This document shows, piece by piece, positions 935 to 15,490 of a stretch of DNA of 28,832 bases. The stretch is from a virus. Within the stretch, counting starts at the first letter, position 1. Each line of letters starts with the position of its first letter. The notes beneath the pieces were generated by a model. The model was given only the letters and a program-made list of their open reading frames with translations. It ran no database searches and was not told the DNA's origin. The DNA lies in IMG/VR virus record IMGVR_UViG_3300020463_002191, positions 1-28,832 of that record, one strand, 5' to 3'. A program made the translations under genes and the position numbers.

Positions 935-2026
935 TTATATTATATACTCTTTTACAAGATTATGCAAGTCCGGATTTGCATCTTTCCAATGTTCATTTCG
1001 TAAATTATTCATTAGTTTATCCTGTTCAAGAAATATATTAAAGTTTCCTTTCTTACTTAATTCTTTTTTGTACACCTCAAAACTTGCTATACCTTGTATA
1101 CTTTCTAGTATTTTTGGCTTTACTTGCTCTGGTAAATGCCTTGGCATCATATAATTAGGGCCGTCTATAAGAAAATATTTTTGACAATCTTGTTTTAACT
1201 CGTTACAAAAATTAACAAACTCTTTTGCTTTATTAATATTATAAATGCTTAGAACACTATGAACAGACGACTGTGGGAACATATCAAAAAACCATAACAG
1301 ATTTTTGAATGTGCTTTTCCAATTACTTCCTTTACGTAAAAAGTCATTTAGCTCTCCATGTGCATCTATGCTTAGTGTAACTTTTACTAACTTACATTTA
1401 GAAAATAATTCAAAAAGTTCTTCATTAGGACGTAAAGTTGCATTTGTAATTAGATGTACTGTAAGATTTTCTAAATCACATTGTTGTAAAATCTTTATTA
1501 GAACATTTTGCTCCATTAAAGGTTCTCCGCCTAATAGCTTTATATAGTTCAATGTAGAAAAGTCTGTATTTTCTATAAATGGATTTCTAACTATTCCTTT
1601 TGGTATTTCTAAACCTAATTTTTTTGCATCACTATACCAATGAGTGCTTAAAGACGGAACGCACATTCTACATTTATTATTACAAGTATTGCTAACACTT
1701 AGGTCAACATAACGTAATACAGGATCTCCTCCTTTAGATAAACTTGTAGCTCCATACTTTTCTTGCTCGTCCCAAGCTTCTAATCTAAAACTACTCGCAT
1801 TGTTTTTTTCTCTTTCATAGCAATGAGTACATCCTGCAACAGGTTTATCCTCTAGCATATCCTTTCTAAGTTTTTGCATATAATGATGATTGAAAGGATC
1901 TTTATGATAGATATTTAAATCTTGTGGTACATCGTCCCACCTAAAAATACAGCATGGAAAAATTTGACCGTCAGGTCTTATTGCCATATGATTGAATGGC
2001 AGAGGACATGCATATTTCTTATCCAC
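935..2026 (-). CDS. Twitch-type radical SAM protein (N-terminal auxiliary cysteines)
   Basis: This 363-aa protein starts at GTG (2024-2026), 8 bases inside the end of the preceding gene, with a GGGA stretch upstream that could serve as ribosome binding site. The N-terminal segment has C7 in CPLPF, the pair C25-C26 and C66-x2-C69, a pattern seen in SPASM/twitch domains that bind auxiliary Fe-S clusters, here placed before the catalytic core. The radical SAM motif CNNKCRMC is at 115-122 and GGEP at 166-169. The same layout recurs in four other proteins of the window. In the family, SAM is cleaved reductively to a 5'-deoxyadenosyl radical. The substrate cannot be read from the sequence; peptide, sugar and nucleotide substrates are all possible. 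Confidence 0.9.
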   Translation of the reverse strand: MDKKYACPLPFNHMAIRPDGQIFPCCIFRWDDVPQDLNIYHKDPFNHHYMQKLRKDMLEDKPVAGCTHCYEREKNNASSFRLEAWDEQEKYGATSLSKGGDPVLRYVDLSVSNTCNNKCRMCVPSLSTHWYSDAKKLGLEIPKGIVRNPFIENTDFSTLNYIKLLGGEPLMEQNVLIKILQQCDLENLTVHLITNATLRPNEELFELFSKCKLVKVTLSIDAHGELNDFLRKGSNWKSTFKNLLWFFDMFPQSSVHSVLSIYNINKAKEFVNFCNELKQDCQKYFLIDGPNYMMPRHLPEQVKPKILESIQGIASFEVYKKELSKKGNFNIFLEQDKLMNNLRNEHWKDANPDLHNLVKEYII

Positions 2027-3194
2027 TTATTGTTCCCAATACAGAAGTATCTATATGATTTTTCATAACCTCCGTATAATTGTCTATATGTTTTGATTTA
2101 GGCGCACATAGCCCACAACTACAAGTATGTTTAGGGCAAATAACAGTAGGCATTGTGTTGTTTTCTAAATTCTGTTTTAATTCTGCAATTAATTTTTTAC
2201 CTTCACTTAGTTTTCCTATAGGGCCTCTAGTTTTATCAAAACGAGCTTGGCATGTTTGATGATGATAAATGCTATCTGTTTGTTGCTCTAAATGTAAGAA
2301 AAACCAATTGACACTACATGCCCAACCTTTAAATTCTCGCATATCAACAAATGTTGCTTTTCTTCCTTTACCCTTCATACTTAAACACATTTCTCTACTT
2401 CCGCAACAAGGCCTTCCTACAGTAAAACCTAACTTCTTTTTTTCAGTGGTTTTTTCTCCGGCGGCACTTAGTATGTTAGCTTCTTCTCTGTCATTGTTTA
2501 ATTTTTCGTTTTTATACTTCCAGTAATTTTTTATATAATCTAATTGTTGATCTGTATATTGGTGTGAAAAACTTGCTCTACTTCCTGGTTCCTCACCAAT
2601 TATCCGAGGAACATATTTTACTTTTATGTCATCTAAATATTCACATAAATCTTTACACTCATCAAAATATTGTGCATGAAACATTACATTTACACTTACT
2701 GATAATCCATGGTCAGGCCCTTGTGTGTGAAATTGTTTTATTCTATCTCTAACCTGTTGCTTCAATTTATTATTACTTTCAGAATGATAGCTTACAGTAA
2801 TATGGCCAAGATTTTCCATAACTTTCTGAGCCATTTTTTCTCCCATAGCTCCGTTACTTGTAAGTGCAAAACTGCCTTTCCATCTGTCTGCATATTTTTC
2901 CTCATATTCTGTTCTTAAATATTGAATGAAAGGAATAAAGTTTGGATTTACAGTTGGTTCTCCTCCTGTAAAACTTATACTTGTTCTTTTATATGTTCTA
3001 TATTGCATATATGTATCGATATATTCGAACAGGAAATCAGTATTTGCTTTTAGCTCATCTATAGTAGCATGTTTACTAAAATTGTCATGCCGATGTGCAG
3101 GACAATAACTACAGTCGTAATTACACCTACGCCCTGTATCCCATGTGACTTGGAATACTTTTCCTGTCAATAAGTCAATAGTATCAAAGCTCAT
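2019..3194 (-). CDS. Radical SAM protein with C-terminal cysteine cluster
   Basis: This 391-aa protein has the radical SAM motif CNYDCSYC at residues 24-31 and GGEP at 77-80. The C-terminal third carries further cysteines: GWAC, a QTC, and a CPKHTCSCGLC cluster near residues 355-366 that could hold an extra Fe-S cluster. There is no N-terminal twitch segment, so the architecture differs from both neighbours; its closest match in the window is the truncated gene at 1-932. The ATG at 3192-3194 overlaps the end of the radical SAM-QueC-like gene by 11 bases, with GGAAAAG just upstream, which suggests translational coupling. Function beyond radical SAM chemistry is unknown. Confidence 0.88.
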   Translation of the reverse strand: MSFDTIDLLTGKVFQVTWDTGRRCNYDCSYCPAHRHDNFSKHATIDELKANTDFLFEYIDTYMQYRTYKRTSISFTGGEPTVNPNFIPFIQYLRTEYEEKYADRWKGSFALTSNGAMGEKMAQKVMENLGHITVSYHSESNNKLKQQVRDRIKQFHTQGPDHGLSVSVNVMFHAQYFDECKDLCEYLDDIKVKYVPRIIGEEPGSRASFSHQYTDQQLDYIKNYWKYKNEKLNNDREEANILSAAGEKTTEKKKLGFTVGRPCCGSREMCLSMKGKGRKATFVDMREFKGWACSVNWFFLHLEQQTDSIYHHQTCQARFDKTRGPIGKLSEGKKLIAELKQNLENNTMPTVICPKHTCSCGLCAPKSKHIDNYTEVMKNHIDTSVLGTISG

Positions 3195-5694
3195 TCTTTT
3201 CCATTGCCCATTCTCTTTCTACACACCAATAACAAACTCCACATTCGTCTGGTATAATGTTGGTATACCTATACCAAGTAGCATCCATTCCAAAATGTGT
3301 TCTTTCTATGTGTGCATCACCTTCGCAACTTCTAGTAAGGTGTAGCAGTTCTAATATATTTAAATCTTTATACTGTTTGATTACCCAATCTTTTGCTGTA
3401 TGGCTGTAGGGCTGAAGAGCCCACCATGTACTTCTATACATAGCAACATATTTTTCTGCTTTTTCATCTCTGTTTAGCATTCTATGTCCTGTATAATTAG
3501 GTATATTAGCTGTAGTTGCATTATATACAGCATCGTAACCATTAGTAAATTGCATGTACCTGTTAAATTCATTCATTAAAATCTGTTCTCCAGATTTACC
3601 ATCTATAATTTCTCCAGATACTCCGTGTTCTAGCTGTGGTGGTACAAATGTAGTAAAACGCTCTCCAATTATGTTTGGAAATCTAACTTTAAGCCAGTCA
3701 TAGACACGTTTACTAACGTCTGCTTGCCATGGTCTAGTTTCCCAACATCTATGTGAACTTAAAATATCTATAGTACATTCATGTTTATTTTTTTCAATCT
3801 CTGTACATAAAATGTATGCCAGTGAGGCACTATCTGCTCCTCCACTTAACATAAGTGCAAGTTTAGTCCATTCAGGATTCAAAGGAATATCTACACCATC
3901 ATGATCAAAAGTGTTTATGCCCTTACGAAGTAGATTTTTGTTATTCTCTGTGTCTCTTAGTAAAACTATTTTTCTAATTTCTTCCTGTACTAATGTCTTT
4001 TTGTGCAAATCAGCTTTAGCAAGTTCACACTTACGTTTCTCATCTTTGTGATGATTTAGTATTATATTATATGCTTTTTCATGTGTACTATTCCTAATTT
4101 CCTCTTTTTCAGCTTTACTTACATATTTTATATGATATTCTAAATCTTGTTTATCCTCAAGTTCTTGAATTAGATTATTCCAATGTTCTGCGGCATTAGC
4201 TTTTTTCCTTAGTGCAGGAACATCTTTCAGTAGTTCCTGTTGTTCTACAATTTGGTCGTTATAGGTTACAGGTTCTGGTAGAGTAAACTCTTCCTTATAA
4301 GGAATTGATTCATAAGTAAGTACTCTCCCCATTGGGAATAGTGTATCTCTTTCCATTTTTTTATCCTTTCTTTTGTATTTTATAAAATAGTCGTTAAAGT
4401 TTTTTTTCCATAATTTGTCTATTTTCTGGCTATAGTGTAAAAACCCTTCCCAGTCTTTTTCTGTAGTGTATTTGTAATTAGTTACATATTCTTCAATTAT
4501 ATCTATACCATTACGGGCTGATCTAATATCACTAAATGGATGATCTTGCAACCCGTCCCAAGACCTATGTATTTTAGGATCACCTAATAGCCTGACTTCC
4601 TCTATATGTGTAATTGTTTCTCTAACAGCTTTTAGGTCTTCCATAACTTCTTTAGAAAAATGACGCATCATTAAAGCTGGGTTAATATATTTTGGAGTGT
4701 AAACAATACTACAATTAACTGCATTTAAATTTAGTGTAAGTAAAGATTCTATTACATTTTCTATGTCCATTATCTGATATGCACTAGTGGTACATACTGC
4801 ATCTATTTCGGTAAAATCATTTACTTCATTAAATTTTCTTAAGTTTTCTTTTAATTTTTTCCAACTACCGTCTCTAAAATAAGGATATATATTTGTTCCT
4901 GCATCAACACTAATCATAATTTTAGTTCTGCCAAATGGTTTTAAAGCATCACTTAGATCTTTTACATCAAAATCTGCATTGAAATTACTGTGGAAAAATA
5001 TTAATAAATTTTTTGCATTTGGATGTTCAGCTAATTTATGTAAACATGGAAGAAATTGTTTTTGATATAAAACTTCTCCTCCGGCAAAATCAATTTTTTC
5101 AATGTTAGGAAAATTTTTATTTAAATCTTCTGCAATCTCAAGCACATGAGCTTTCTTTAGATCTATGTTTGCATCAAAAAACTTAGCATCTCCTGGATCT
5201 GCGTTTTTTTCTAGCCTGTCAGGCCACCAAACTCTATGCTGTGTACCTAGTAATTGTTCTAAATTATATTCTTTATCTATTTCATCTGGTACATAATTTT
5301 TTAATCTACTTCCCCATAAACTACTATAAACATTACTACAATGTAAACATGCCATATTACATGCATTACTAAATCTTAATTCAACGTGTTTAAGTCCTTC
5401 AAATTTAATTTTTCCAGTAGTTGGATCATAATTAGATAAATCTGCAGGGTAATCCTGCCTCATACTTTTTATATTATTTTCTTCATTAGTTTTACATAGG
5501 CTACAATCTTTAGGCCATTCGCCTTTATCTAATAATTTTCTGTACTCTGTAAAATAATTGTTGTTCCAAAATTTACTAGGAATTTCTCCATTTAATTCTT
5601 TTAATCGTGCTCCGCTAATAGGACAAACAGTTGCAAATCCGTTTTTATAATTTAAACCTCCATGGGCATAATAGCAAGGTATCTTAGAAGTCAT
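3184..5694 (-). CDS. Radical SAM protein fused to QueC-like PP-loop ATPase
   Basis: I chose the ATG at 5692-5694 (836 aa) because a GAGG ribosome binding site precedes it and the overlap with the upstream gene is then 11 bases; the open frame itself reaches 5805. N-terminal half: an auxiliary segment with HGGLNY and CSLC, the radical SAM motif CNMACLHC at 112-119 and GGE at 205-207. C-terminal part: SGGADS at 617-622 is the ATP-binding PP-loop of N-type ATP pyrophosphatases, followed by SC at 789-790 and CGVCYWC at 818-824. That four-cysteine arrangement matches the zinc site of QueC (7-cyano-7-deazaguanine synthase). About 120 charged residues link the halves and include a segment shared with the 11025-12281 protein. 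QueC adenylates a carboxylate and turns it into an amide, then a nitrile. The pairing with a twitch-type radical SAM domain suggests one polypeptide doing two successive steps; the substrate is unknown. Confidence 0.85.
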   Translation of the reverse strand: MTSKIPCYYAHGGLNYKNGFATVCPISGARLKELNGEIPSKFWNNNYFTEYRKLLDKGEWPKDCSLCKTNEENNIKSMRQDYPADLSNYDPTTGKIKFEGLKHVELRFSNACNMACLHCSNVYSSLWGSRLKNYVPDEIDKEYNLEQLLGTQHRVWWPDRLEKNADPGDAKFFDANIDLKKAHVLEIAEDLNKNFPNIEKIDFAGGEVLYQKQFLPCLHKLAEHPNAKNLLIFFHSNFNADFDVKDLSDALKPFGRTKIMISVDAGTNIYPYFRDGSWKKLKENLRKFNEVNDFTEIDAVCTTSAYQIMDIENVIESLLTLNLNAVNCSIVYTPKYINPALMMRHFSKEVMEDLKAVRETITHIEEVRLLGDPKIHRSWDGLQDHPFSDIRSARNGIDIIEEYVTNYKYTTEKDWEGFLHYSQKIDKLWKKNFNDYFIKYKRKDKKMERDTLFPMGRVLTYESIPYKEEFTLPEPVTYNDQIVEQQELLKDVPALRKKANAAEHWNNLIQELEDKQDLEYHIKYVSKAEKEEIRNSTHEKAYNIILNHHKDEKRKCELAKADLHKKTLVQEEIRKIVLLRDTENNKNLLRKGINTFDHDGVDIPLNPEWTKLALMLSGGADSASLAYILCTEIEKNKHECTIDILSSHRCWETRPWQADVSKRVYDWLKVRFPNIIGERFTTFVPPQLEHGVSGEIIDGKSGEQILMNEFNRYMQFTNGYDAVYNATTANIPNYTGHRMLNRDEKAEKYVAMYRSTWWALQPYSHTAKDWVIKQYKDLNILELLHLTRSCEGDAHIERTHFGMDATWYRYTNIIPDECGVCYWCVEREWAMEKNEL
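4030..4134 (-). other. Segment shared with the 11025-12281 protein
   Basis: Residues 521-555 of the fusion protein, in the linker between the radical SAM and QueC-like parts, begin HIKYVSKAEK and end NHHKDEKRK. By eye they align to residues 222-255 of the 418-aa radical SAM/SPASM protein with 15 identities over 35 columns and one gap, including the SK.EK core, NI.L and the HH..E.RK end. The two host proteins otherwise belong to different architectures, so a moved or recombined segment is plausible. No function is known to me. Confidence 0.6.
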
Positions 5695-7090
5695 TAAAAA
5701 TGCCTCGCATTTCAGGAAAGGTGTCTGCAAAAGATATACCTCTTTGTTTATCACAAAGTTGTAAAAATTCTTGCATCTCGGGAAGACGTCTGCTCCAATC
5801 TTCACTTTCCATAAATGTAAGCATACCTTTTAACCTATCAATGCCGTATTCTGCACTACGCCATTCTTCGTATTTTACTTTACCTTTATGCCAACTAGGT
5901 ACACCTAATTCCCAATTTTCTTCCCACCAGGGGTAAAACCTTTCATACTTTAATCTACATTCTTTCTTAAACCATGCAGGTAATATTTTTACATTAAGAT
6001 GCGGCGGGTGATAAACAAAATGATAATTTATTGCTCCTGCGGCAAACGGCCACATGTTTATTTTTCTAAATTTCTTTTCTAATTTCCATTTTATAAAATC
6101 TGGAATATAATAAACGTTTAAAGCCTGTACTGCACAAGCTATAGTTACTTCAACATTATCACTAGTCTCATTATCTAAAATATGAAAAACTTCTTCTTGG
6201 CGTTTCCAATCACTAGGATAACGTATATAGTCATTCATCTGTTTTATGCTGTCGACACTATAATGAAAACGCACCAACTTAAAATGCTTCCATAGATCAA
6301 ATAAATCGTCACGCCATTCAACACCATTGCTGTTATACCTTAGCTCTAAATTTTTAGCATAGCCCATTTTAATAGCATGTTCAAGTATTTCATAGTGTTC
6401 CTCAATAATAAGACTTTCGCCTCCAGCAAAATATATCTGTTGCATACTTGGCATCTGTTCATAAAACTGTTTCCAGAATGTAGGATTTTGTTTGTGCCAA
6501 TTGTAGCTACTTCCATTAAAACTGCCTTTATCTTTCCATTGCATTGTTTCTTTTAGGCTGGCATTTTCTACAGCAGGAAATACAGCTTTCCAGTCTTTAA
6601 TCCAGCCAGAACTATCATGCGGTGAACACATAACACAGGCTAATTGACATTTTGTGCCAAAACGTAAATCGATATATGCAAGTTGTGGTGGTACAGATCC
6701 ATCTTCTTTGGTGTCAGATAATATTTTATCTATATCAACACGCTGTCCCCAATAATGAGTTTCCCACATACGCTTACTTTTATGCCCTGCTTCTTCTTCC
6801 TTGTAGCATTTCAAACAGCTAGGAGGCTTTTGCCCGTTAAGCATTTGCTTACGTACATTTTTCATGTATGTACTATTCCAAGCAGTCTCAAAATCACTTA
6901 CATTTAAGTTATTAGGTTTGCCGTCTTCTGTTTTAAGAATACCAACTTGTCCGCCATGCTCTCGGTCATTGGTGGCTCCTACTGAACTTGCGTTTGCAGT
7001 ACAGCATACTCGCATACTTCCATCTGGTCTTGTGCTTAAATGCACCCAAGGTAACAAACAAAATGTATCTGAAGGTAGTTTTCTATCCAT
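5684..7090 (-). CDS. Twitch-type radical SAM protein, first gene of the left minus-strand operon
   Basis: This 468-aa protein begins with a classic twitch-like segment: C11 in FCLLPWVHL, a G-rich stretch, C29-C30, and C92-x2-C95. The radical SAM motif CQLACVMC is at 148-155 and GGES at 223-226. The C-terminus carries a DTFPE motif in the context DKQRGISFADTFPE, which recurs as DKKRRINFHDTFPE in the 12298-13677 protein; the two are probably closest relatives here. The ATG at 7088-7090 has no Shine-Dalgarno sequence and lies about 24 bases downstream of the predicted transcription start of the palindromic promoter at 7113-7128. It probably leads an operon running down to base 1. Substrate unknown. 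Confidence 0.9.
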   Translation of the reverse strand: MDRKLPSDTFCLLPWVHLSTRPDGSMRVCCTANASSVGATNDREHGGQVGILKTEDGKPNNLNVSDFETAWNSTYMKNVRKQMLNGQKPPSCLKCYKEEEAGHKSKRMWETHYWGQRVDIDKILSDTKEDGSVPPQLAYIDLRFGTKCQLACVMCSPHDSSGWIKDWKAVFPAVENASLKETMQWKDKGSFNGSSYNWHKQNPTFWKQFYEQMPSMQQIYFAGGESLIIEEHYEILEHAIKMGYAKNLELRYNSNGVEWRDDLFDLWKHFKLVRFHYSVDSIKQMNDYIRYPSDWKRQEEVFHILDNETSDNVEVTIACAVQALNVYYIPDFIKWKLEKKFRKINMWPFAAGAINYHFVYHPPHLNVKILPAWFKKECRLKYERFYPWWEENWELGVPSWHKGKVKYEEWRSAEYGIDRLKGMLTFMESEDWSRRLPEMQEFLQLCDKQRGISFADTFPEMRGIFNDF

Positions 7091-7158: not shown

Positions 7159-8385
7159 ATGGGTGAAACTTTTTGCCCATATATGTGGATACAACAATGC
7201 GTAACGACTACTGGCGGAGTTCAACCTTGCTGTAATTCTTATGTAGATGATCCGTTATGGAAAGATTTAGACTTTACTAAAGGTATAAAAATTAAAAGGT
7301 TCGAGGACGAACGTATAAGGATGCGTAAAGGACGTTGGCCTTTAGTGTGCAAGGTTTGTAAAGATTACGAAGAATTAGGCTCATCTAGTCCAAGACATCA
7401 TGCATTACACGATTGGCCTAATATTACACCAAAAAGCGAACCTCATCTTAAATTCTTAGATATTAAGTATACAAATACTTGTAATTTATCCTGTAGAATG
7501 TGTAAACCAACTGATAGTTCTATGATTGAAGAAGCATACATGAATAAAAATGTTGACGAGATTCCACATTATATAACAAGCATAGGCGGTGTAAACAACG
7601 AAAGAAAAGTATTAGACTTATGTAGTCCAACTGAGAAAGTTGAATATACAAAAAAATGTATCAAAGAAGGTCTTGAAGTTTTAAAGGTGACAGGCGGTGA
7701 ACCACTTGCATGTAAGTATTTTATGAGCGTTATAAACTGGGCAATAGAAAATAATTTTGCAAAAAATCTGTCTTTAAAATTTACTACAAATGCAACCAAG
7801 TATAATAAATCTTTTATAGAGAAAACAAAACATTTTAAACATATACAAATTACAATTAGTTGTGATGGTACTGAAAACATTTATAATTATATAAGAAATA
7901 AAGGTGACTGGAACCAGCTGTACAAAAATTTACAACTAATAAGCAAATTTAAAAAAGATTATCCAAATAAGACATGGGTACAATTAAGCACAGTTTTGCA
8001 GTACTATAATATGTTGAATATTCCTTCATTAGCTGACTTATGTATAGAATTAGACTTCGTTTTTCATGTAGATATCTTCCTTAGACCTAAAGACAGCGAG
8101 TTGCAAGTAAAATGGGCATCAGAAAAACTACTAAATATATTGCAAGACGATTGTAAAAGAGTTATTAAAACTTCTACAGATACTAATACAAATGAACAAA
8201 TGGAAAAAATAATAAAATACATTAGTAGCAATTCTAATTGGGTAGGATTTAAAAAAACTAAGAGAAATAAATTTGCACAGTTAAGGCAATCAACTGAAAG
8301 AATGGATAAAATTTATAAAACAGACTTTAGAGACTATCTAATGCAAGAACAAGTACAACACTTACAATCAAGAAAAGGTTTTTGA
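7159..8385 (+). CDS. Twitch-type radical SAM protein
   Basis: This 408-aa protein has the N-terminal auxiliary pattern (C6, C24-C25, C64-x2-C67), the radical SAM motif CNLSCRMC at 108-115 and GGEP at 179-182. Its C-terminus (STERMDKIYKTDFRDYL) resembles a stretch before the linker of the radical SAM-QueC-like fusion (YSQKIDKLWKKNFNDYF), so this core may be its nearest relative in the window. It opens a two-gene plus-strand unit set into the minus-strand array, read from the bidirectional promoter at 7113-7128. No clear Shine-Dalgarno precedes the ATG. One base separates its stop from the GTG of the nitroreductase-like gene, so the two are co-translated and may act as a pair. Confidence 0.9.
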   Translation: MGETFCPYMWIQQCVTTTGGVQPCCNSYVDDPLWKDLDFTKGIKIKRFEDERIRMRKGRWPLVCKVCKDYEELGSSSPRHHALHDWPNITPKSEPHLKFLDIKYTNTCNLSCRMCKPTDSSMIEEAYMNKNVDEIPHYITSIGGVNNERKVLDLCSPTEKVEYTKKCIKEGLEVLKVTGGEPLACKYFMSVINWAIENNFAKNLSLKFTTNATKYNKSFIEKTKHFKHIQITISCDGTENIYNYIRNKGDWNQLYKNLQLISKFKKDYPNKTWVQLSTVLQYYNMLNIPSLADLCIELDFVFHVDIFLRPKDSELQVKWASEKLLNILQDDCKRVIKTSTDTNTNEQMEKIIKYISSNSNWVGFKKTKRNKFAQLRQSTERMDKIYKTDFRDYLMQEQVQHLQSRKGF

Positions 8386-8386
8386 C

Positions 8387-9049
8387 GTGAAGTTAACGTG
8401 GGATTTATTAGAAAAAGCAAGTGACAATGCAAATCACTGTCAAAGAAATTGGGATAGAACAAAGGTTATTAGTAATAAAGAGAGAGATACCTTAATAAAA
8501 GTTGCAACAAATATGCCAACTAAGCAAAATCGTGCCTATTATCATTTACTAGTATCTGACAATATGGATGTAAACAGGGAAATATACAAAAGAGCCTTTG
8601 ATAACAAAAATATATGGGGTACAGACCAACGCAATTCACAAGTAGATAGCCACTTACTGTTCATTTATGTTAAGAATTCAATTCGTCAGGTAGAAGAAGG
8701 AATGACCGGTAGTGAAAAAAATACTAAGACTACAAACCTAATTGAAACACACAACTTTAACGTAAATTTGTCTGTAGGTATCAGTTCAGGTGCAGTTGCA
8801 TTAGCCGCAAATGAAATGGGTATGAGGTCTGGATTCTGTTGTTGTTATGACAAGGATATGATTAAAAGTTATTTAAAAAGTATAGGACACAACCTTACTG
8901 ATGCGATAGTAACGATGTTAGGTATTGGTTATCCAAATACCGAATATAAAAGTAATGTAGTAGTAAAAGATGCTGAAAATAAAGAAGACGAGAAAACACT
9001 ACAAAGAGTCACACAACATCCTAAATTAATACAATACAAAATATTATAA
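8387..9049 (+). CDS. Nitroreductase-family flavoprotein
   Basis: This 220-aa protein starts at GTG (8387-8389) with AAAAGG about 8 bases upstream. It shows the layout of FMN-dependent nitroreductases: an N-terminal arginine region (RNWDR, 20-24), the MPTKQNRAYYHLLV stretch at 43-56 in the place of the family's PSxxN segment, the helix GISSGAVALAANEMGMRSG at 131-149, and MLGIGYPN at 177-184 in the place of the family's LGxGxP segment. Family members use NAD(P)H and FMN to reduce nitro, quinone or unsaturated groups, and some relatives oxidise azolines in peptide natural products. Pairing with a radical SAM protein suggests a redox step in the same pathway or an electron supply to it; this is inference. 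Its stop overlaps the convergent stop of 9044-9985 within TTATAA. Confidence 0.8.
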   Translation: MKLTWDLLEKASDNANHCQRNWDRTKVISNKERDTLIKVATNMPTKQNRAYYHLLVSDNMDVNREIYKRAFDNKNIWGTDQRNSQVDSHLLFIYVKNSIRQVEEGMTGSEKNTKTTNLIETHNFNVNLSVGISSGAVALAANEMGMRSGFCCCYDKDMIKSYLKSIGHNLTDAIVTMLGIGYPNTEYKSNVVVKDAENKEDEKTLQRVTQHPKLIQYKIL

Positions 9050-9985
9050 TTTTTCTCTAATAAACTTATCTCGTCTATTTTGCTTACAAACACTTTCGCA
9101 TTTTGGAATTCTATTGTTACTATTCCAACTTTCCTGGATGTCTGTCCAAACTTTTCCGTACATAGCTTGGTCAAGACTTACATTTTTCAAATTTATATCA
9201 CTCATGTAATTATTTTCTACAAGGATTTGCTCAAATCTATCTTTTTGTTTATCATTTACAGCAAATTCTAACATTTTACTATTTAAATGACAACAAGGTA
9301 TGACATTACCCATATGATTTACAAATATTCTTTTTTGATTACCATATTTACAACTAATAGATGGGGATTCTTCTACCTCTAACTTTTTATGTTTTACTCC
9401 GCCTGTGTCTTTTCTATGGCTAATAATGGTTTTGAATTCTTTAAAGCCTTCATTGATAGCCATTTGCTTTGCAATTTCTAATTGGTGCTCGTTATGCTCA
9501 AAAACAATAAATTGCCAGTGAGCTCTGCCGCCGGAACCTATAAATGCCCGGAAATTTTTCTGTACTTTTTTAAAATTACTACCTTGTCTATACATTTCAC
9601 TTGTTTCGTCACTACCATCTATTCCCCAGGTTACTACGTGACTTTCTGGCATAAATCCGGCAAGTTTACTCCACCATGATTCAGTTCGTAAGCTACCATT
9701 AGTTGCAACATTTATATGACAATTCCACGTTGCAAAATGTTTTATTATCTCAAAGAACTGAGGATGTGTAGTAGGCTCGTCAACACTTCCGCAGAAGTTT
9801 ATAATTTTTATATTAGGAAACATTTCTTTTTGAAATTTTTCTTTTATAACATCTAAATCTAAATAAGTCTTATTTAAAATCTTATCTGCTTCTTTAGACA
9901 TAACCCTAAAACAACCTTTGCAACTTATGTTACAAAAACTTGTAAGTTCAATATCAATCCATTCTAATGTATCAGTAGACCACAT
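9044..9985 (-). CDS. Radical SAM/SPASM protein with altered GGE motif
   Basis: This 313-aa protein has the radical SAM motif CNISCKGC at residues 18-25, right at the N-terminus, and a C-terminal SPASM-like segment: C212, C231-C232, C296 and C300. Where the family normally has GGEP it has CGSVDEP (65-71). A signature GGRAHWQFIVFEHNEHQLE near 152-170 is shared with the three other proteins of this subfamily. The start ATG overlaps the preceding stop by one base (TAATG), so it is probably the last gene of the operon starting at 12281. SPASM proteins often modify peptides or proteins, but no precursor is visible. Substrate unknown. Confidence 0.88.
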   Translation of the reverse strand: MWSTDTLEWIDIELTSFCNISCKGCFRVMSKEADKILNKTYLDLDVIKEKFQKEMFPNIKIINFCGSVDEPTTHPQFFEIIKHFATWNCHINVATNGSLRTESWWSKLAGFMPESHVVTWGIDGSDETSEMYRQGSNFKKVQKNFRAFIGSGGRAHWQFIVFEHNEHQLEIAKQMAINEGFKEFKTIISHRKDTGGVKHKKLEVEESPSISCKYGNQKRIFVNHMGNVIPCCHLNSKMLEFAVNDKQKDRFEQILVENNYMSDINLKNVSLDQAMYGKVWTDIQESWNSNNRIPKCESVCKQNRRDKFIREKL

Positions 9986-11028
9986 TACGCTTCTACCTTA
10001 ATTTCATTATGATATGCATGATTGTATGCACAAGTTCTAACACACCGTGTCAAATGTTTATCATGGCTTGGCCACCAGCTGTCGATTAGTATCTTATCAA
10101 ACCACGGATGGCTTAAAACATCACTTATAGAATTTGTTTTCAAACTATTCCATCCTGTTGAATACTCACTTAATTTCTCGTTAATGTTTTCATAATTTTT
10201 AAATGTGCTATCCCATAAAAAACAACAAGGCCACATTTCCTGCTTCGAACTTATAAAAATTTCACCCTCGTGTATAAGTTTACATGTCATAGAATTTATT
10301 ATTTCGGTTGTTTGTTCTAATGTTTTGTTAGCATTTCCTAAAAACTTATCTAGCTGTTGAATTTGTTTTAGTTTAGAATGTTGTTTAGCACCTGTTGTTG
10401 TTATAACCTTTTCTTTTTGAGAGTTTTTCTTTCCTAACTTTGCTATCCAAGAATTATAACTATTACGCATACCTGTCCTAGTGGCAAATTTAAAACCTAA
10501 TTCTTTTGCATGTAGCCGTGCCGCTTCTAGTTCATGTTCATTATGATCAAAAACTATGTATATCCAGGTTGCTATGCCGCCAGCGTCACTGTATGCTTTC
10601 ATGTTTCTTTCTAAAACAGCCCACTTTGTGTTTACACGGTATATATGATTTGTTTCTTTGTGACCATCCACACAAAAACTAATATCTAACTTTTTAGTTT
10701 CTTTACTTAGTTTGCCTAATTGTTCCCACCAGTCTGCTGTTTGATATCCACCATTTGTACTCCACTGACAATTGGCTCCGTTGTAAATTAAGTATTCGGT
10801 CATTTTAATTGCGTCTTTGTTTACAATAACGTCTCCTAAGTAGCCACAAAATTTAAATTTTTTGTTTTCTATATGCCTACGATCCGGAAACATCCTTTGT
10901 AGATCTTCTAGTGTAAAACTTAAAACTTCTACCTTGTCAATATTAATTGTTCTATTACACCCTGGACATGCGGCATTACAATCACTAGTAACTTCAAGCT
11001 CAATTCTTTTTATATTGTCTATATTCAT
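9985..11028 (-). CDS. Radical SAM/SPASM protein, tandem paralogue (short form)
   Basis: This 347-aa protein has CNAACPGC at 17-24 and CGYLGDV at 61-67 in the GGE position. The auxiliary cysteines are C249, C267-C268, C329 and C333. It aligns without gaps to the 418-aa neighbour for the first 190 residues and again through the C-terminus, for example HEGEIFIS, QEMWPCCFLWDS and EKLSEYSTGWNSLK, so the pair arose by tandem duplication. It lacks the 71-residue insert of that neighbour. The start overlaps the upstream stop as ATGA. A lysine-rich linker (GKKNSQKEK, TTTGAKQHSK) joins the core to the SPASM-like part. Substrate unknown; the duplicated pair may act on related substrates or as a complex. 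Confidence 0.88.
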   Translation of the reverse strand: MNIDNIKRIELEVTSDCNAACPGCNRTINIDKVEVLSFTLEDLQRMFPDRRHIENKKFKFCGYLGDVIVNKDAIKMTEYLIYNGANCQWSTNGGYQTADWWEQLGKLSKETKKLDISFCVDGHKETNHIYRVNTKWAVLERNMKAYSDAGGIATWIYIVFDHNEHELEAARLHAKELGFKFATRTGMRNSYNSWIAKLGKKNSQKEKVITTTGAKQHSKLKQIQQLDKFLGNANKTLEQTTEIINSMTCKLIHEGEIFISSKQEMWPCCFLWDSTFKNYENINEKLSEYSTGWNSLKTNSISDVLSHPWFDKILIDSWWPSHDKHLTRCVRTCAYNHAYHNEIKVEA

Positions 11029-12281
11029 ACTGGCTCATGATTTATCTGATTGTGGTATGCTTTATTATAAGCACAAGTTCTTATACATCTAGGTAAATGT
11101 TTATCATGATTGGGATTCCAACTTTGACCTAAAATTTTATCAAACCAAGGATGATTTAAAACGTCATTAATGCCTTGAATTTTTAGACTATTCCATCCTG
11201 TTGAATATTCACTTAACTTTTCCATAATATTTTCTTTATTTTTAAAAGCACTATCCCATAAAAAACAGCAAGGCCACATTTCTTGTTTTGCACTTATAAA
11301 GATTTCTCCTTCATGTATAAGTTTACATTTTATAGTAGGCAATATTTCTTTTATTTCCTTAACAGTTTTTTCTTCCTTTGCTATAAATGTATTAAGTTTT
11401 TTTACTTTTTCCTTTTGTGTGTGTTCCTTAGATCCTGTAGTTGTAATAATCTTTTTTTCTTTATTATTTTTTTTACCTAGTTCGGCTACCCAAGCATTAG
11501 CATTGTTAGGATCACGTTTTCTTATTTCATTAGCATGATGATCAAGCACTATATTTAAAACATCTGCGCCTTGTTGCTTTGCTATTTGTTTTTCTTCTTT
11601 ACTAATATGCTTTACATGCGTTTGGGGATCTTCCTTTCCTTCAAAAACTGCTTTATATCTTTTCTTCCATAAGTCTAATTCATGATAATTTTTTGTTGAG
11701 TTACTTTCCAAACTATTACGCATACCTGTTCGTGTAGCAAATCTAAACCCTAATCTCCTAGCATGTTCTCTTGCCTTTTCTACTTCATTTTCGTTGTGGT
11801 CAAAAACTATGTAAATCCATTGTCCGTTACCTCCAGCATTACTAAATGCTTCTATATTTCTATTAAGAATAGGCCACTTTGTATTTACTCTATAAATATG
11901 GTTGGTTTTTTCATGCCCGTCTATGCAAAAATTAACTTCTACTAGCCCTGTTTCTTTGCTTATTTCTCCTAGTTCTTGCCACCATTCTGCACGTTGGTAT
12001 GCACCGTTTGTACTCCATTGACAAAATCCTCCGTTATCTGTAAGATACCTAGTCATTTGCACGGCATCTTTGTTAACAGCCGGATCTCCCAAAACCCCGC
12101 ACAGCTTAAATTCTTTGTTTTTTATATATCGTTCGTTAGGAAACATCCTAACTACATCATCAATAGTAAAACTTTTGATTTCTAGTATGTCAGGATTTTG
12201 TGTCCTGGCACAGCCTGGACATGCGGCATTGCAGTCACTGGTTATTTCCAGTTCGATTTTGGAAACATTGTCAATATTCAT
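11025..12281 (-). CDS. Radical SAM/SPASM protein, tandem paralogue (long form)
   Basis: This 418-aa protein has CNAACPGC at 17-24, CGVLGDP at 61-67 in place of the usual GGE, and SPASM-like cysteines C319, C338-C339, C399 and C403. It differs from the adjacent 347-aa paralogue mainly by about 71 extra residues (191-261) between the core and the linker. The ATG at 12279-12281 leads the three-gene minus unit. Only 16 bases separate it from the divergent ATG at 12298, and a near-palindrome related to the 7113-7128 element fills that gap, so the transcript would have a leader of about 5 bases and no room for a Shine-Dalgarno sequence. Substrate unknown. Confidence 0.88.
   Translation of the reverse strand: MNIDNVSKIELEITSDCNAACPGCARTQNPDILEIKSFTIDDVVRMFPNERYIKNKEFKLCGVLGDPAVNKDAVQMTRYLTDNGGFCQWSTNGAYQRAEWWQELGEISKETGLVEVNFCIDGHEKTNHIYRVNTKWPILNRNIEAFSNAGGNGQWIYIVFDHNENEVEKAREHARRLGFRFATRTGMRNSLESNSTKNYHELDLWKKRYKAVFEGKEDPQTHVKHISKEEKQIAKQQGADVLNIVLDHHANEIRKRDPNNANAWVAELGKKNNKEKKIITTTGSKEHTQKEKVKKLNTFIAKEEKTVKEIKEILPTIKCKLIHEGEIFISAKQEMWPCCFLWDSAFKNKENIMEKLSEYSTGWNSLKIQGINDVLNHPWFDKILGQSWNPNHDKHLPRCIRTCAYNKAYHNQINHEPV
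11499..11711 (-). other. 71-residue in-frame insert in the long paralogue
   Basis: The 347-aa and 418-aa paralogues match in register up to residue 190 (GMRNS) and resume at WxAxLGKKN. The extra 71 residues in the long form are charged and probably helical. They contain the part (residues 222-255, about 11517-11618) that resembles the linker of the radical SAM-QueC-like fusion. No intein splice signature or nuclease motif is visible. Either an insertion here or a deletion in the short form would explain it; the match to a third protein favours a mobile or exchanged segment. Confidence 0.65.
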
Positions 12282-12283
12282 AA

Positions 12284-12300
12284 CTATAAATATACTTATG
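12284..12300. promoter_or_regulatory. Divergent late-promoter element in a 16-base gap
   Basis: CTATAAATATACTTATG spans the gap between divergent starts. The plus strand holds an exact TATAAATA late box (12285-12292). The minus strand reads CATAAGTA at about 12300-12293, one base from the CATAAATA found elsewhere here. The element is nearly the palindrome at 7113-7128. Start sites 6-7 bases downstream would fall at or just before the two ATGs, giving leaderless or near-leaderless mRNAs. The promoter role is inferred. Confidence 0.65.
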
Positions 12301-13677
12301 AAAAGATCTTTCGAAATTTCACCTAAATTGAGAGCCCATAATAGAGTTATAGAAAGATTTAATAGTAAAATATTTTGTTCCGCCCCATTTACACATATGC
12401 AATTTACTGAAAATAATCAGATTACTGCCTGTTGTAAAAGTAAAACTTCACTAGGTGATTGTTCAAACGATAAAACTGAGGATATCTATAACAGTCCTAT
12501 AGCAAAAGAACTTAGACGGTTTATGCTTGAAGGCAAAAAACATCCACAATGTGTTTCATGCTGGAATGTTGAAAAACAACATGAAGGTTTCCCTAGTGGA
12601 AATAGAAGAGACAGTAATAGCCAGATGTATACAGATTATGGCTTAGCAGAATTAGAAAAAAATATCCTTCCAGATGGAACTTTAAAAAATCCTATCCCTG
12701 GATTTGTAGATTTGCTTTGGACAAATAAGTGTAATTTTGCATGTTTAGGCTGTAAACCTCAATTCAGCACAACAATTAATGATGTATACAAAACGGAATT
12801 TGCTACCTTACAGGGATTTAAGTTAGAAGACTACTATCCAGACCAGCAAGAATGGAAAAGCGGGAATGAAGAGAAAATAAGATTTATTTTAGAAAATAAA
12901 GAACAAATAAAAGTTATACATTTACAAGGTGGAGAGCCTTTTTTAGTAGACGATGTATACGATTTTTTACAATCAATGATTGACGTAGGTTTACACAAAA
13001 CTTGTAAATTAGTAGCACATACAAATGGTAGTATTCACAAAAATAGAAAAGGCAAAGATCTTATTGGTGACTATCTAGGACATTGGGGTAAAAATGCAAG
13101 AATATTAATGAGCATAGATGGTATTGGGCAACGAGGAGAATATATAAGATATGGATGGAAAGAAAAAGTTTGGCGGAAAACATTTGATAAGTTAGTTGAA
13201 TCAGATATTGATGTTGCAACAGACAGTAGGGCAAATATATTTAATTTGCTAACAATACCACACTTTGAAGACTACATTTACAATATGTGTAACAAAAATA
13301 AAGTTGATGTTAATGAACCAAAATTAGAAGTCTGGCAAAATGAAACACTAAACGTAGCACTTGCTAAAATACATGAACCTACTAGATTAAAAGCAATAAG
13401 GGCAATGAAACATGTATCATATATGCCTGGATGGAAAAATAATTCGAAAAAAATTATCGATTGGTTAGAAAATGATTATATGCCTAGACCGAAAGATGTA
13501 AAAAGTTTTATAGATGGTGTTATTGCATTAGACAAGAAACGACGTATAAATTTTCATGATACTTTTCCAGAACTGCATGATTGGTGGGAATCTGCAGAAT
13601 TGTTAGCCAGGTCAATCGATTACAAAGAAGATGAAAACTGGAAAGATTTAGAAAAAGTTGCTGTAATAGTTAGGTAA
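12298..13677 (+). CDS. Twitch-type radical SAM protein
   Basis: I place the start at the ATG 12298-12300 (459 aa). The frame is open further upstream to 12070, but that part lies antisense to the 11025-12281 gene and adds nothing family-like. The auxiliary pattern is C27 in CSAPFTHM, C45-C46 and C85-x2-C88; the radical SAM motif CNFACLGC is at 145-152 and GGEP at 211-214. The C-terminal DKKRRINFHDTFPEL matches the 5684-7090 protein. It is a single-gene plus-strand unit with a perfect TATAAATA immediately upstream and no Shine-Dalgarno sequence. A TTG start near 12328 is a weaker alternative. Its last 8 bases overlap the end of the convergent gene 13670-14734. Substrate unknown. Confidence 0.88.
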   Translation: MKRSFEISPKLRAHNRVIERFNSKIFCSAPFTHMQFTENNQITACCKSKTSLGDCSNDKTEDIYNSPIAKELRRFMLEGKKHPQCVSCWNVEKQHEGFPSGNRRDSNSQMYTDYGLAELEKNILPDGTLKNPIPGFVDLLWTNKCNFACLGCKPQFSTTINDVYKTEFATLQGFKLEDYYPDQQEWKSGNEEKIRFILENKEQIKVIHLQGGEPFLVDDVYDFLQSMIDVGLHKTCKLVAHTNGSIHKNRKGKDLIGDYLGHWGKNARILMSIDGIGQRGEYIRYGWKEKVWRKTFDKLVESDIDVATDSRANIFNLLTIPHFEDYIYNMCNKNKVDVNEPKLEVWQNETLNVALAKIHEPTRLKAIRAMKHVSYMPGWKNNSKKIIDWLENDYMPRPKDVKSFIDGVIALDKKRRINFHDTFPELHDWWESAELLARSIDYKEDENWKDLEKVAVIVR

Positions 13678-14734
13678 ATTGTTCTGTAAAAGGATCAAAT
13701 TCTGCACCACACTTCATTGAACAAACTTTTAGCTTTCCGTCAGCACAGCTAGGTTTATTCCAACTATTAGAAATATTTGTAAATATACCTGTATTAAAAA
13801 CCTGTTCAAGGCCTTTCTTAGCATTAAGTTTATCTTTATCAATAAAGTCCCATATCTGCTCTACATAAGGATCTTCATGCCACCATTTGTACATTCTGCC
13901 TGCTGTCCAACAACAAGGAAGCACTAATCCTTCAGCACTTACATAAATTTCTTTCTTGTCAACGCATTTAGGTTTAATAGGAGCAACATCATAATAGGCA
14001 TCCATACTACCATATTTTTTAATGATAACATCTTGCTTTTTTAATGCTTTGTTTTGATACTTAGGATCAGGTTTTTTTAATTCTGCTGTGTTTTGTCCCT
14101 TTTTACTAACTGCTTGGTGTGATTCTTTCTTCTGTGAATCTTGAGTTATAAATCTTCCTGTTTTCTTAGCAACGAATTTTTCACAACCCCATTTATTTGC
14201 AAGTTCTCGTGCTTCCTCTACTTGGTGTTGGTTATGTCCAAAAATTAAAAAATCCCATCGAGCTCTTCCGCCAGCATCACAAAATGCTCGCATGTTGCGT
14301 TCTACATTGTTCCAAACAACATTTTGCCTATACAGATGATTAGTGTCACTAAGACCGTCAACAGAGAATATAACGGCACCCTTTTTTCCAATTGTTTTAG
14401 CAAGTTTTTTCCACCATTCAACATTTTTTGCTCCTGCGTTTGTATTCATACTTAACCACATTGTGGAATTATTTTGTCTAAAATAATCAAATACTTCTAA
14501 TGTATCTTTTGCAATTATAGGATCTCCTAAATTTCCACACATATACATGGTTTCCAATTGGTTAATAAATTTTGGAGAAAAGATATCCATACAATCTTGC
14601 AAAGATAATTCATCTAAGTTTATATGAGGATTAATCCCTTCTCCATTCATATTCCGATCGCACATAGGACAAGCCGCTTGGCAATTCTGCGTAATCTCTA
14701 AATGAATTGTTTTTATATCTGCGTAATTATACAT
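13670..14734 (-). CDS. Radical SAM/SPASM protein with altered GGE motif
   Basis: This 354-aa protein has CQAACPMC at 18-25, CGNLGDP at 66-72 in the GGE position, the subfamily signature GGRARWDFLIFGHNQHQ near 155-171, and SPASM-like cysteines C257 and C274-C275 plus a C-terminal group (PSCADGKLKVCSMKC). A lysine-rich linker of about 50 residues lies between core and SPASM segment, in the same place as in the tandem paralogues but with different sequence. It is the last gene of the long minus chain that starts at 21709, separated from its relatives at 9044-12281 by an inverted gene. It overlaps the upstream kinase-like gene by 8 bases. Substrate unknown. Confidence 0.88.
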   Translation of the reverse strand: MYNYADIKTIHLEITQNCQAACPMCDRNMNGEGINPHINLDELSLQDCMDIFSPKFINQLETMYMCGNLGDPIIAKDTLEVFDYFRQNNSTMWLSMNTNAGAKNVEWWKKLAKTIGKKGAVIFSVDGLSDTNHLYRQNVVWNNVERNMRAFCDAGGRARWDFLIFGHNQHQVEEARELANKWGCEKFVAKKTGRFITQDSQKKESHQAVSKKGQNTAELKKPDPKYQNKALKKQDVIIKKYGSMDAYYDVAPIKPKCVDKKEIYVSAEGLVLPCCWTAGRMYKWWHEDPYVEQIWDFIDKDKLNAKKGLEQVFNTGIFTNISNSWNKPSCADGKLKVCSMKCGAEFDPFTEQFT

Positions 14735-15266
14735 CTTTTATATTATTATAATACCTTTGTATTCTATGCATAAGTTCTACATGAACTTGAATAAATTTGT
14801 ATCCACTTTCTAATTCAGAACTAAACCCGTATGAGTCAGGATCTATGAATTTAATTTGATAGTCACTAGTCAAAACTAAATTACATAATTTTAAATCATC
14901 GTGTGTAAAATATTCATGGCCTTTAAGGGTTTTAGAATATTCAAAATCTATGGCCCAGGCTCTACTTAAAACACTAATTGTTTCACATATCAAATCTTTT
15001 GTAATTAAATTTTTATGTTTAGAACCTGCTTTAAAGAGTTCTTCTAAATTACATATTACGTCTAGCTTTTCCATAACTATCATCTTGCCTTCGTTTGTAA
15101 CATCATAAACTTTAACTAAATTTTTATTCTCTTTGTATAATGTACGATATGCTTCTAACCAATCAGAATTACATATCAAACCTTTATGTAAACTTTTATA
15201 AACTTTGCCGTTTTTTACAAAAATTCTATGATTAGGTTTGTGCTCCAAAGGTGTTATTTCTTTCAT
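14727..15266 (-). CDS. Small kinase-like / aminoglycoside phosphotransferase-like protein
   Basis: This 179-aa protein carries the catalytic loop of the kinase-like fold: HDDLKLCN at 122-129 gives the HxDxxxxN pattern, and FIDPDSYGF at 140-148 gives the metal-binding aspartate (D142 or D144). An N-terminal strand pair (RIFVKNGKVYKSL) could supply the ATP-binding lysine, and IVMEKL near 63-68 resembles the hinge. It is much shorter than typical protein kinases (about 250 aa or more) and has no clear glycine-rich loop, so the closest fit is the aminoglycoside/choline kinase or LPS-core kinase group. It may phosphorylate a sugar or other small molecule in the pathway of the neighbouring glycosyltransferases, or be a degenerate fold. 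Start ATG overlaps the preceding stop as ATGA. Confidence 0.65.
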   Translation of the reverse strand: MKEITPLEHKPNHRIFVKNGKVYKSLHKGLICNSDWLEAYRTLYKENKNLVKVYDVTNEGKMIVMEKLDVICNLEELFKAGSKHKNLITKDLICETISVLSRAWAIDFEYSKTLKGHEYFTHDDLKLCNLVLTSDYQIKFIDPDSYGFSSELESGYKFIQVHVELMHRIQRYYNNIKDV

Positions 15267-15490
15267 TCTTCACTATCCATAATTAATTTTACCTTTGTAC
15301 CTGGTCCTATCTTGCTTGGTAATCCACCGTATGAATCAATATACCATTCAACCACTGCCTTGTACCAATCTTGACTGTTATGGTGAGCTTTTTTGTTAAA
15401 TTGGTGTATGTTGTTGTTAGTGGCTTGCATAGTTTGTAATGCTCTAGCACATTCTAACTGTAATGTACGTAAATTTAAATTTTCTATCAC
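15263..15490 (-). CDS. Unknown 75-aa protein
   Basis: The GTG start at 15488-15490 overlaps the upstream stop as GTGA, and the gene's own stop overlaps the kinase-like ATG as ATGA; this tight coupling on both sides supports a real gene. No family recognised. The N-terminal half looks helical and polar; the middle has KKAHHNSQDWYKAVVEWYIDS; the end is glycine-rich (YGGLPSKIGPGTKVKL). No signal peptide, membrane segment or cysteine. It is the smallest gene in a cluster rich in radical SAM and tailoring enzymes, so a substrate or carrier role could be considered, but nothing in the sequence proves it. Confidence 0.65.
   Translation of the reverse strand: MIENLNLRTLQLECARALQTMQATNNNIHQFNKKAHHNSQDWYKAVVEWYIDSYGGLPSKIGPGTKVKLIMDSEE

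Follow-up and report, generated by a model that had tools for sequence, protein, structure and literature searches.

In a 28.8-kb stretch of a virus record (28,832 nucleotides, called the window here), one gene encodes both a radical SAM enzyme and a relative of QueC. What would such a double enzyme make, and how general is the association of its two parts? On the way to preQ0, the radical SAM enzyme QueE is followed by QueC, and QueC relatives were recently found modifying proteins in bacterial defence. The first-pass annotation of the window named two kinds of product for the fusion, nucleobase-like or amide-linked.

Results

The fused gene lies on the minus strand (3184..5694) and encodes a protein of 836 aa, with an ATG at 5694, a stop codon at 3184-3186 and no internal stops. 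Its translation bears out the initial description of a single polypeptide carrying CNMACLHC (residues 112-119; 5338..5361), GGE (residues 205-207), SGGADS (residues 617-622; 3829..3846) and a four-cysteine site. Domain matches, a structural model and fold searches divide the protein, all on the minus strand, into an N-terminal auxiliary-cluster (twitch-like) and radical SAM domain (residues 1-445; 4360..5694), a linker (residues 446-594; 3913..4359) and a QueC-like PP-loop ATPase domain (residues 595-836; 3187..3912). The AlphaFold2 model has a mean pLDDT of 85; it predicts the linker of ∼150 residues to be mostly helical, with low confidence at residues 454-476. Another radical SAM protein of the window (11025-12281, minus strand) has an insert at residues ∼200-280 similar to part of this linker (E 9e-5, with 41% over 44 aa), a resemblance that looks like reuse of one segment.

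The N-terminal half matches the NCBIfam family NF033640, 'twitch domain-containing radical SAM protein', over residues 18-441 (E 5e-59) and passes its curated cut-off (200 bits against 170 bits). It differs from other N-twitch proteins of that family in the QueC-like domain that follows. The twitch-like auxiliary domain is N-terminal, with C7, C24, C66 and C69 invariant in 20/20 relatives from split pairs; the equivalents in the fusion are C7, C24, C64 and C67. Together with the three cysteines of CxxxCxxC, these make seven invariant cysteines. Fold matches of this half include BlsE, CteB, DesII, anSME and PqqE, at Z ∼11. The half had been described as unlike QueE, and this holds: although QueE too is a radical SAM enzyme, the N-terminal half is longer, carries an auxiliary cluster domain with four invariant cysteines, and has no QueE family among its profile matches.

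The C-terminal half matches phrog_1550, 'QueC-like' (E 5e-7). In its predicted structure we recovered a QueC fold that includes the zinc region, consistent with the QueC-type assignment made at first pass: B. subtilis QueC (3bl5) aligns with model residues 609-836 (Z 14.9, rmsd 3.4, 181 aligned). This match came from a VIA second look, and in the Foldseek search of the full model alone QueC was not among the matches listed. Further matches are 2pg3 (Z 14.1), MesJ/TilS 1ni5 (14.0) and NcsA (13.1) and, among QueC-like modifiers, Cap9 (9nto, 13.2) and QatC (9y01, 13.0, to residue 836). Since values no more than 1 Z unit apart count as tied, QueC and TilS are not separable by fold alone. The 1ni5 match stops at residue 794 and the 3bl5 match reaches residue 836; in the model, what places this half with QueC and not with TilS is the set of zinc cysteines together with an alignment that runs to the C terminus. 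The four cysteines proposed as the zinc site are found in the translation as C790, C818, C821 and C824 (3223..3327, minus strand), and C790 is followed by an invariant E791.

All 42 relatives of the C-terminal half share SGGADS, CxxCxxC with a fourth cysteine, P[LFY]x4K and TR[SG]CE. The PP-loop fold, SGGxDS, the four-cysteine zinc site and P[LF]x4K are common to canonical QueC (PF06508; 3bl5, 2pg3). The zinc spacing, in contrast, is C-x20-31-CxxCxxC in the relatives and x8 in E. coli QueC, TR[SG]CE aligns at the position of QueC's essential CY, and a motif search for the canonical YxQxHxxE, VPxRN and YPDC (described in PMC13329287) found them in 0/42. YPDC contributes the Tyr and Asp with which QueC and Cap9 recognise the 7-deazaguanine (PMC13279940). 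No relative matched PF06508 at E 0.01 in hmmscan, and a six-frame search with the same profile gave partial, mostly sub-threshold matches. A PDB sequence search with the domain profile gave marginal PP-loop matches at best, and PADLOC called weak QueC matches in 3/42. Aligned by hhalign with one E. coli QueC, the family profile matched at the zinc end (probability 9.8%, E 0.0033); by this low-probability alignment an invariant arginine, R742, falls near the YPDC site, a placement that is uncertain. E689 is invariant as well. As judged from the motif search and the alignment with one canonical QueC, the CDG-reading motif is lost and the substrate pocket appears remodelled.

Two defence proteins help to place the family. 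QatC of the qatABCD system likewise has the canonical motifs replaced and a long zinc spacing, C-x19-CGxC (PMC13329287). It differs in that the phage family has a radical SAM partner instead, and QatC-type N- and C-terminal extensions are not evident in the split proteins of ∼275 aa. Cap9 of type IV CBASS has PFx4K in common with the phage family, as well as a CE that follows the first zinc cysteine, but keeps the CDG-reading YxDC, which is present in 0/42 phage relatives; its CD-NTase is not seen in the phage gene cassette. The QueC-like half would thus work on the QueC plan and, as with QatC, this does not imply the use of CDG.

At most loci the two halves are encoded by separate, overlapping neighbour genes, and the fusion is the exception. 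Fused forms occur in the window and at six other loci (L007, L022, L024, L025, L029 and L030). The search for other genomes with the same fusion, suggested at first pass, recovered a homologue of 843 aa in L007 that is 75% identical. The linker of the window fusion is shared with L007 and with no other relative; used as a query, it picked up nothing related in the second fused group. The fused L007 protein and a second fused group with an unrelated linker rule out a fusion created by sequencing error. On the domain tree, fused forms fall in two places. A single ancestral fusion conflicts with the supported branches, which force at least two changes, a number that a gain plus a loss could also supply. 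The tree and the unrelated linkers suggest that two separate fusions probably took place.

To avoid selecting on the QueC-like gene, we seeded a linkage scan with the radical SAM half alone. The scan covered 80 loci, two of which stop at a contig edge, leaving 78 testable. A QueC-like gene is adjacent or fused in 65 of the 78 (57 adjacent, 5 fused and 3 adjacent with a longer ORF overlap), a pairing far beyond chance. Split pairs mostly overlap; the overlap measures 8 nt in 33 of 63. The pairing is not absolute, because 13 more divergent radical SAM relatives have no adjacent QueC-like gene (most have a distant one within a few kb) and certain QueC-like genes occur without this radical SAM partner. 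At many loci (L015:9929-10864, L041, L048-L055 and others), another, diverged QueC-like gene lies upstream of the radical SAM partner, and these second genes form a clade of their own.

A scan with the whole fusion matched 9 viral contigs, and the profile of the QueC-like half 172. The same profile gave one weak match among bacterial genome contigs, on a 3.5-kb MAG contig, and tblastn of the fusion against the 50,697 deposited phage records of INPHARED gave none. Among the contigs searched, the QueC-like family is almost confined to those of phages.

The fusion gene stands in a run of overlapping genes that belongs to a cassette whose gene order is conserved across 89 loci. The window encodes ten further radical SAM proteins with CxxxCxxC, the number counted at first pass (3-932, 935-2026, 2019-3194, 5684-7090, 7159-8385, 9044-9985, 9985-11028, 11025-12281, 12163-13677 and 13670-14734). 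Upstream of the fusion, in the same operon and overlapping it by 11 nt, the minus-strand gene at 5684..7090 encodes an N-twitch radical SAM protein of 468 aa (NF033640, 424 bits); present in 88/89 loci, it is the most conserved cassette member. Downstream, also on the minus strand, lie a radical SAM gene with CNYDCSYC at 2019..3194, which overlaps the fusion by 11 nt and is found in 83/89 loci, and an N-twitch gene with CNNKCRMC at 935..2026, which matches NF033640. Among the radical SAM genes are a nitroreductase-like (8387-9049, plus strand) and a kinase-like gene (14727-15266, minus strand), both weak matches.

At the head of the array, a strongly conserved minus-strand gene (15266..15490) encodes a helical protein of 74 aa (model pLDDT 89) and is found in 66/89 loci and 460 viral contigs. 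It almost always lies between methyltransferase-like and radical SAM genes, and it matches no known family. The fold search with its model gave a best Z of ≤4.6, uninformative on a carrier or any known fold. Viewed from this gene, the core of the cassette, present in ∼71-79 of 80 loci, consists of a glycosyltransferase-like gene, a methyltransferase-like gene, the 74-aa gene and rS2, the first radical SAM gene after it (13670..14734, minus strand). A QueC-like gene lies within 6 kb of the 74-aa gene in 24/80 loci, many of which are truncated.

Radical SAM cassettes have been described, without a function, in the host recognition cluster of pelagimyophages (PMC7029224), and 12 radical SAM genes are reported from a T4-like genome (PMC5332604). 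These are phage regions of the same kind; neither paper appears to take up a QueC-like partner or a fusion. Our search of the open-access literature found no description of the partner. In Vibrio phage K566 (L118), an isolated phage of KVP40 size, N-twitch-like radical SAM genes alternate with glycosyltransferase-like genes, and a QueC-like gene was not seen in the stretch read. This phage is a possible cultivable model for the radical SAM array.

The deazaguanine genes suggested as search targets at first pass were sought in long contigs of the same phages; the search was positive for FolE and, in a few contigs, for QueD, and negative for TGT and DpdA. Of the 21 long contigs that have a QueC-like gene, 16 encode FolE and the same 16 a strong QueE-like gene; QueD occurs in four of the 21, all among the longer ones. 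TGT was found in 0/21, and a search for DpdA2 relatives, run without a positive control, returned none in 26 contigs. In L107, L108, L112 and others, FolE and the QueE-like gene lie close together and far from the cassette. The QueE-like protein of these contigs has CxxxCxxF instead of CxxxCxxC, with GCD conserved further along the chain. Tight coupling with QueE is not supported, a QueC-like gene being found in about half of 14 long QueE contigs.

With genes for FolE and a QueE-like enzyme present in several long contigs, CDG may be the carboxylate that the QueC-like enzyme uses. On such a route FolE and QueE, with QueD, would make CDG, and the QueC-like half would attach it to a protein or convert it to a modified base, while the radical SAM half would serve as tailoring enzyme. 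The proximity of FolE and the QueE-like gene in the 16 contigs and the four contigs with QueD fit this route, as do the resemblance of TRSCE to Cap9's CE and the fact that a separate canonical QueC was not recognised over the profile length in the 21 long contigs. However, the CDG-reading Tyr and Asp and the other canonical motifs are missing throughout the family, the searches for TGT and DpdA2 came back empty, about half of the long QueE contigs lack a visible QueC-like gene, and the same type of QueE is present in phages of the KVP40 type that have retained an ordinary QueC. An N-terminal Met-Gly is the acceptor in CBASS and Qat, but Met-Gly is not a conserved start in any protein family of the cassette, as seen with mechanically called starts of cassette genes only. 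We consider the 7-deazaguanine route weakened and unlikely. Of the two products named at first pass, an amide-forming role is plausible by homology; a nucleobase-like product is unsupported, since CDG-reading motifs are absent in 42/42 relatives and TGT and DpdA2 relatives were not found.

Discussion

The explanation that we favour, at a probability of roughly 45%, is that the protein represents a phage module of two enzymes in fused form. An auxiliary-cluster radical SAM enzyme and a QueC-type ATP-dependent ligase with a remodelled pocket would act as one unit of a tailoring cassette, and the product would belong to the virion or the host surface. By analogy with QueC and Cap9, the QueC-like half would most likely adenylate a carboxylate with ATP and pass it to an amine, forming an amide. 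The radical SAM half would make or modify the same molecule; with both halves acting on it, their physical linking would help the hand-over. Within a large tailoring cassette made up of glycosyltransferase-like and methyltransferase-like enzymes, the 74-aa protein and many radical SAM enzymes, the pair would be a single exchangeable unit. Judged by the context of this cassette, which adjoins tail-fibre genes, its product is probably a modification of a protein or glycan of the virion or host surface, and not of DNA. The best-supported idea is amide formation driven by ATP and coupled to radical chemistry, and the product of the pair is probably an amide-linked modification. More tentatively, an undescribed ligase of the QueC superfamily with a dedicated radical SAM partner could join some carboxylate that is not 7-deazaguanine to a component of the phage or of the host surface, as a module of a mix-and-match host-recognition cassette; in this specific form the proposal is possible but doubtful.

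We regard it as improbable that the radical SAM enzymes and the ligase follow a RiPP-like scheme in which their substrate is a small protein of the phage, for example the conserved 74-aa product. Peptides are a frequent target of twitch/SPASM-type radical SAM enzymes, sactisynthases and anSME are among the fold-search matches, and the 74-aa gene is conserved at the head of the array. Yet conservation of the 74-aa protein extends over its whole length, with no variable core peptide, its predicted structure is a compact helical domain, and many loci have its gene with no QueC-like gene seen within 6 kb. Equally improbable is a cassette that builds an unusual nucleotide sugar or glycan, with the QueC-like half as an amidotransferase like the sugar amidotransferases WbpG/PseA: glycosyltransferase-like, methyltransferase-like and oxidoreductase-like neighbours, the matches of the radical SAM half to the sugar-acting BlsE and DesII, and the placement of WbpG-like proteins in the wider PF06508 set speak for it, but the neighbour assignments are weak and mostly below curated cut-offs.

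The two enzymes are a conserved, little-known pair of many uncultured aquatic phages. It represents a phage-side branch of QueC, widespread in aquatic viral contigs, with a near-fixed radical SAM partner and an apparently changed substrate pocket. As a defined two-enzyme unit, the pair offers an entry to the products of the unexplained radical SAM arrays in marine T4-like phages.
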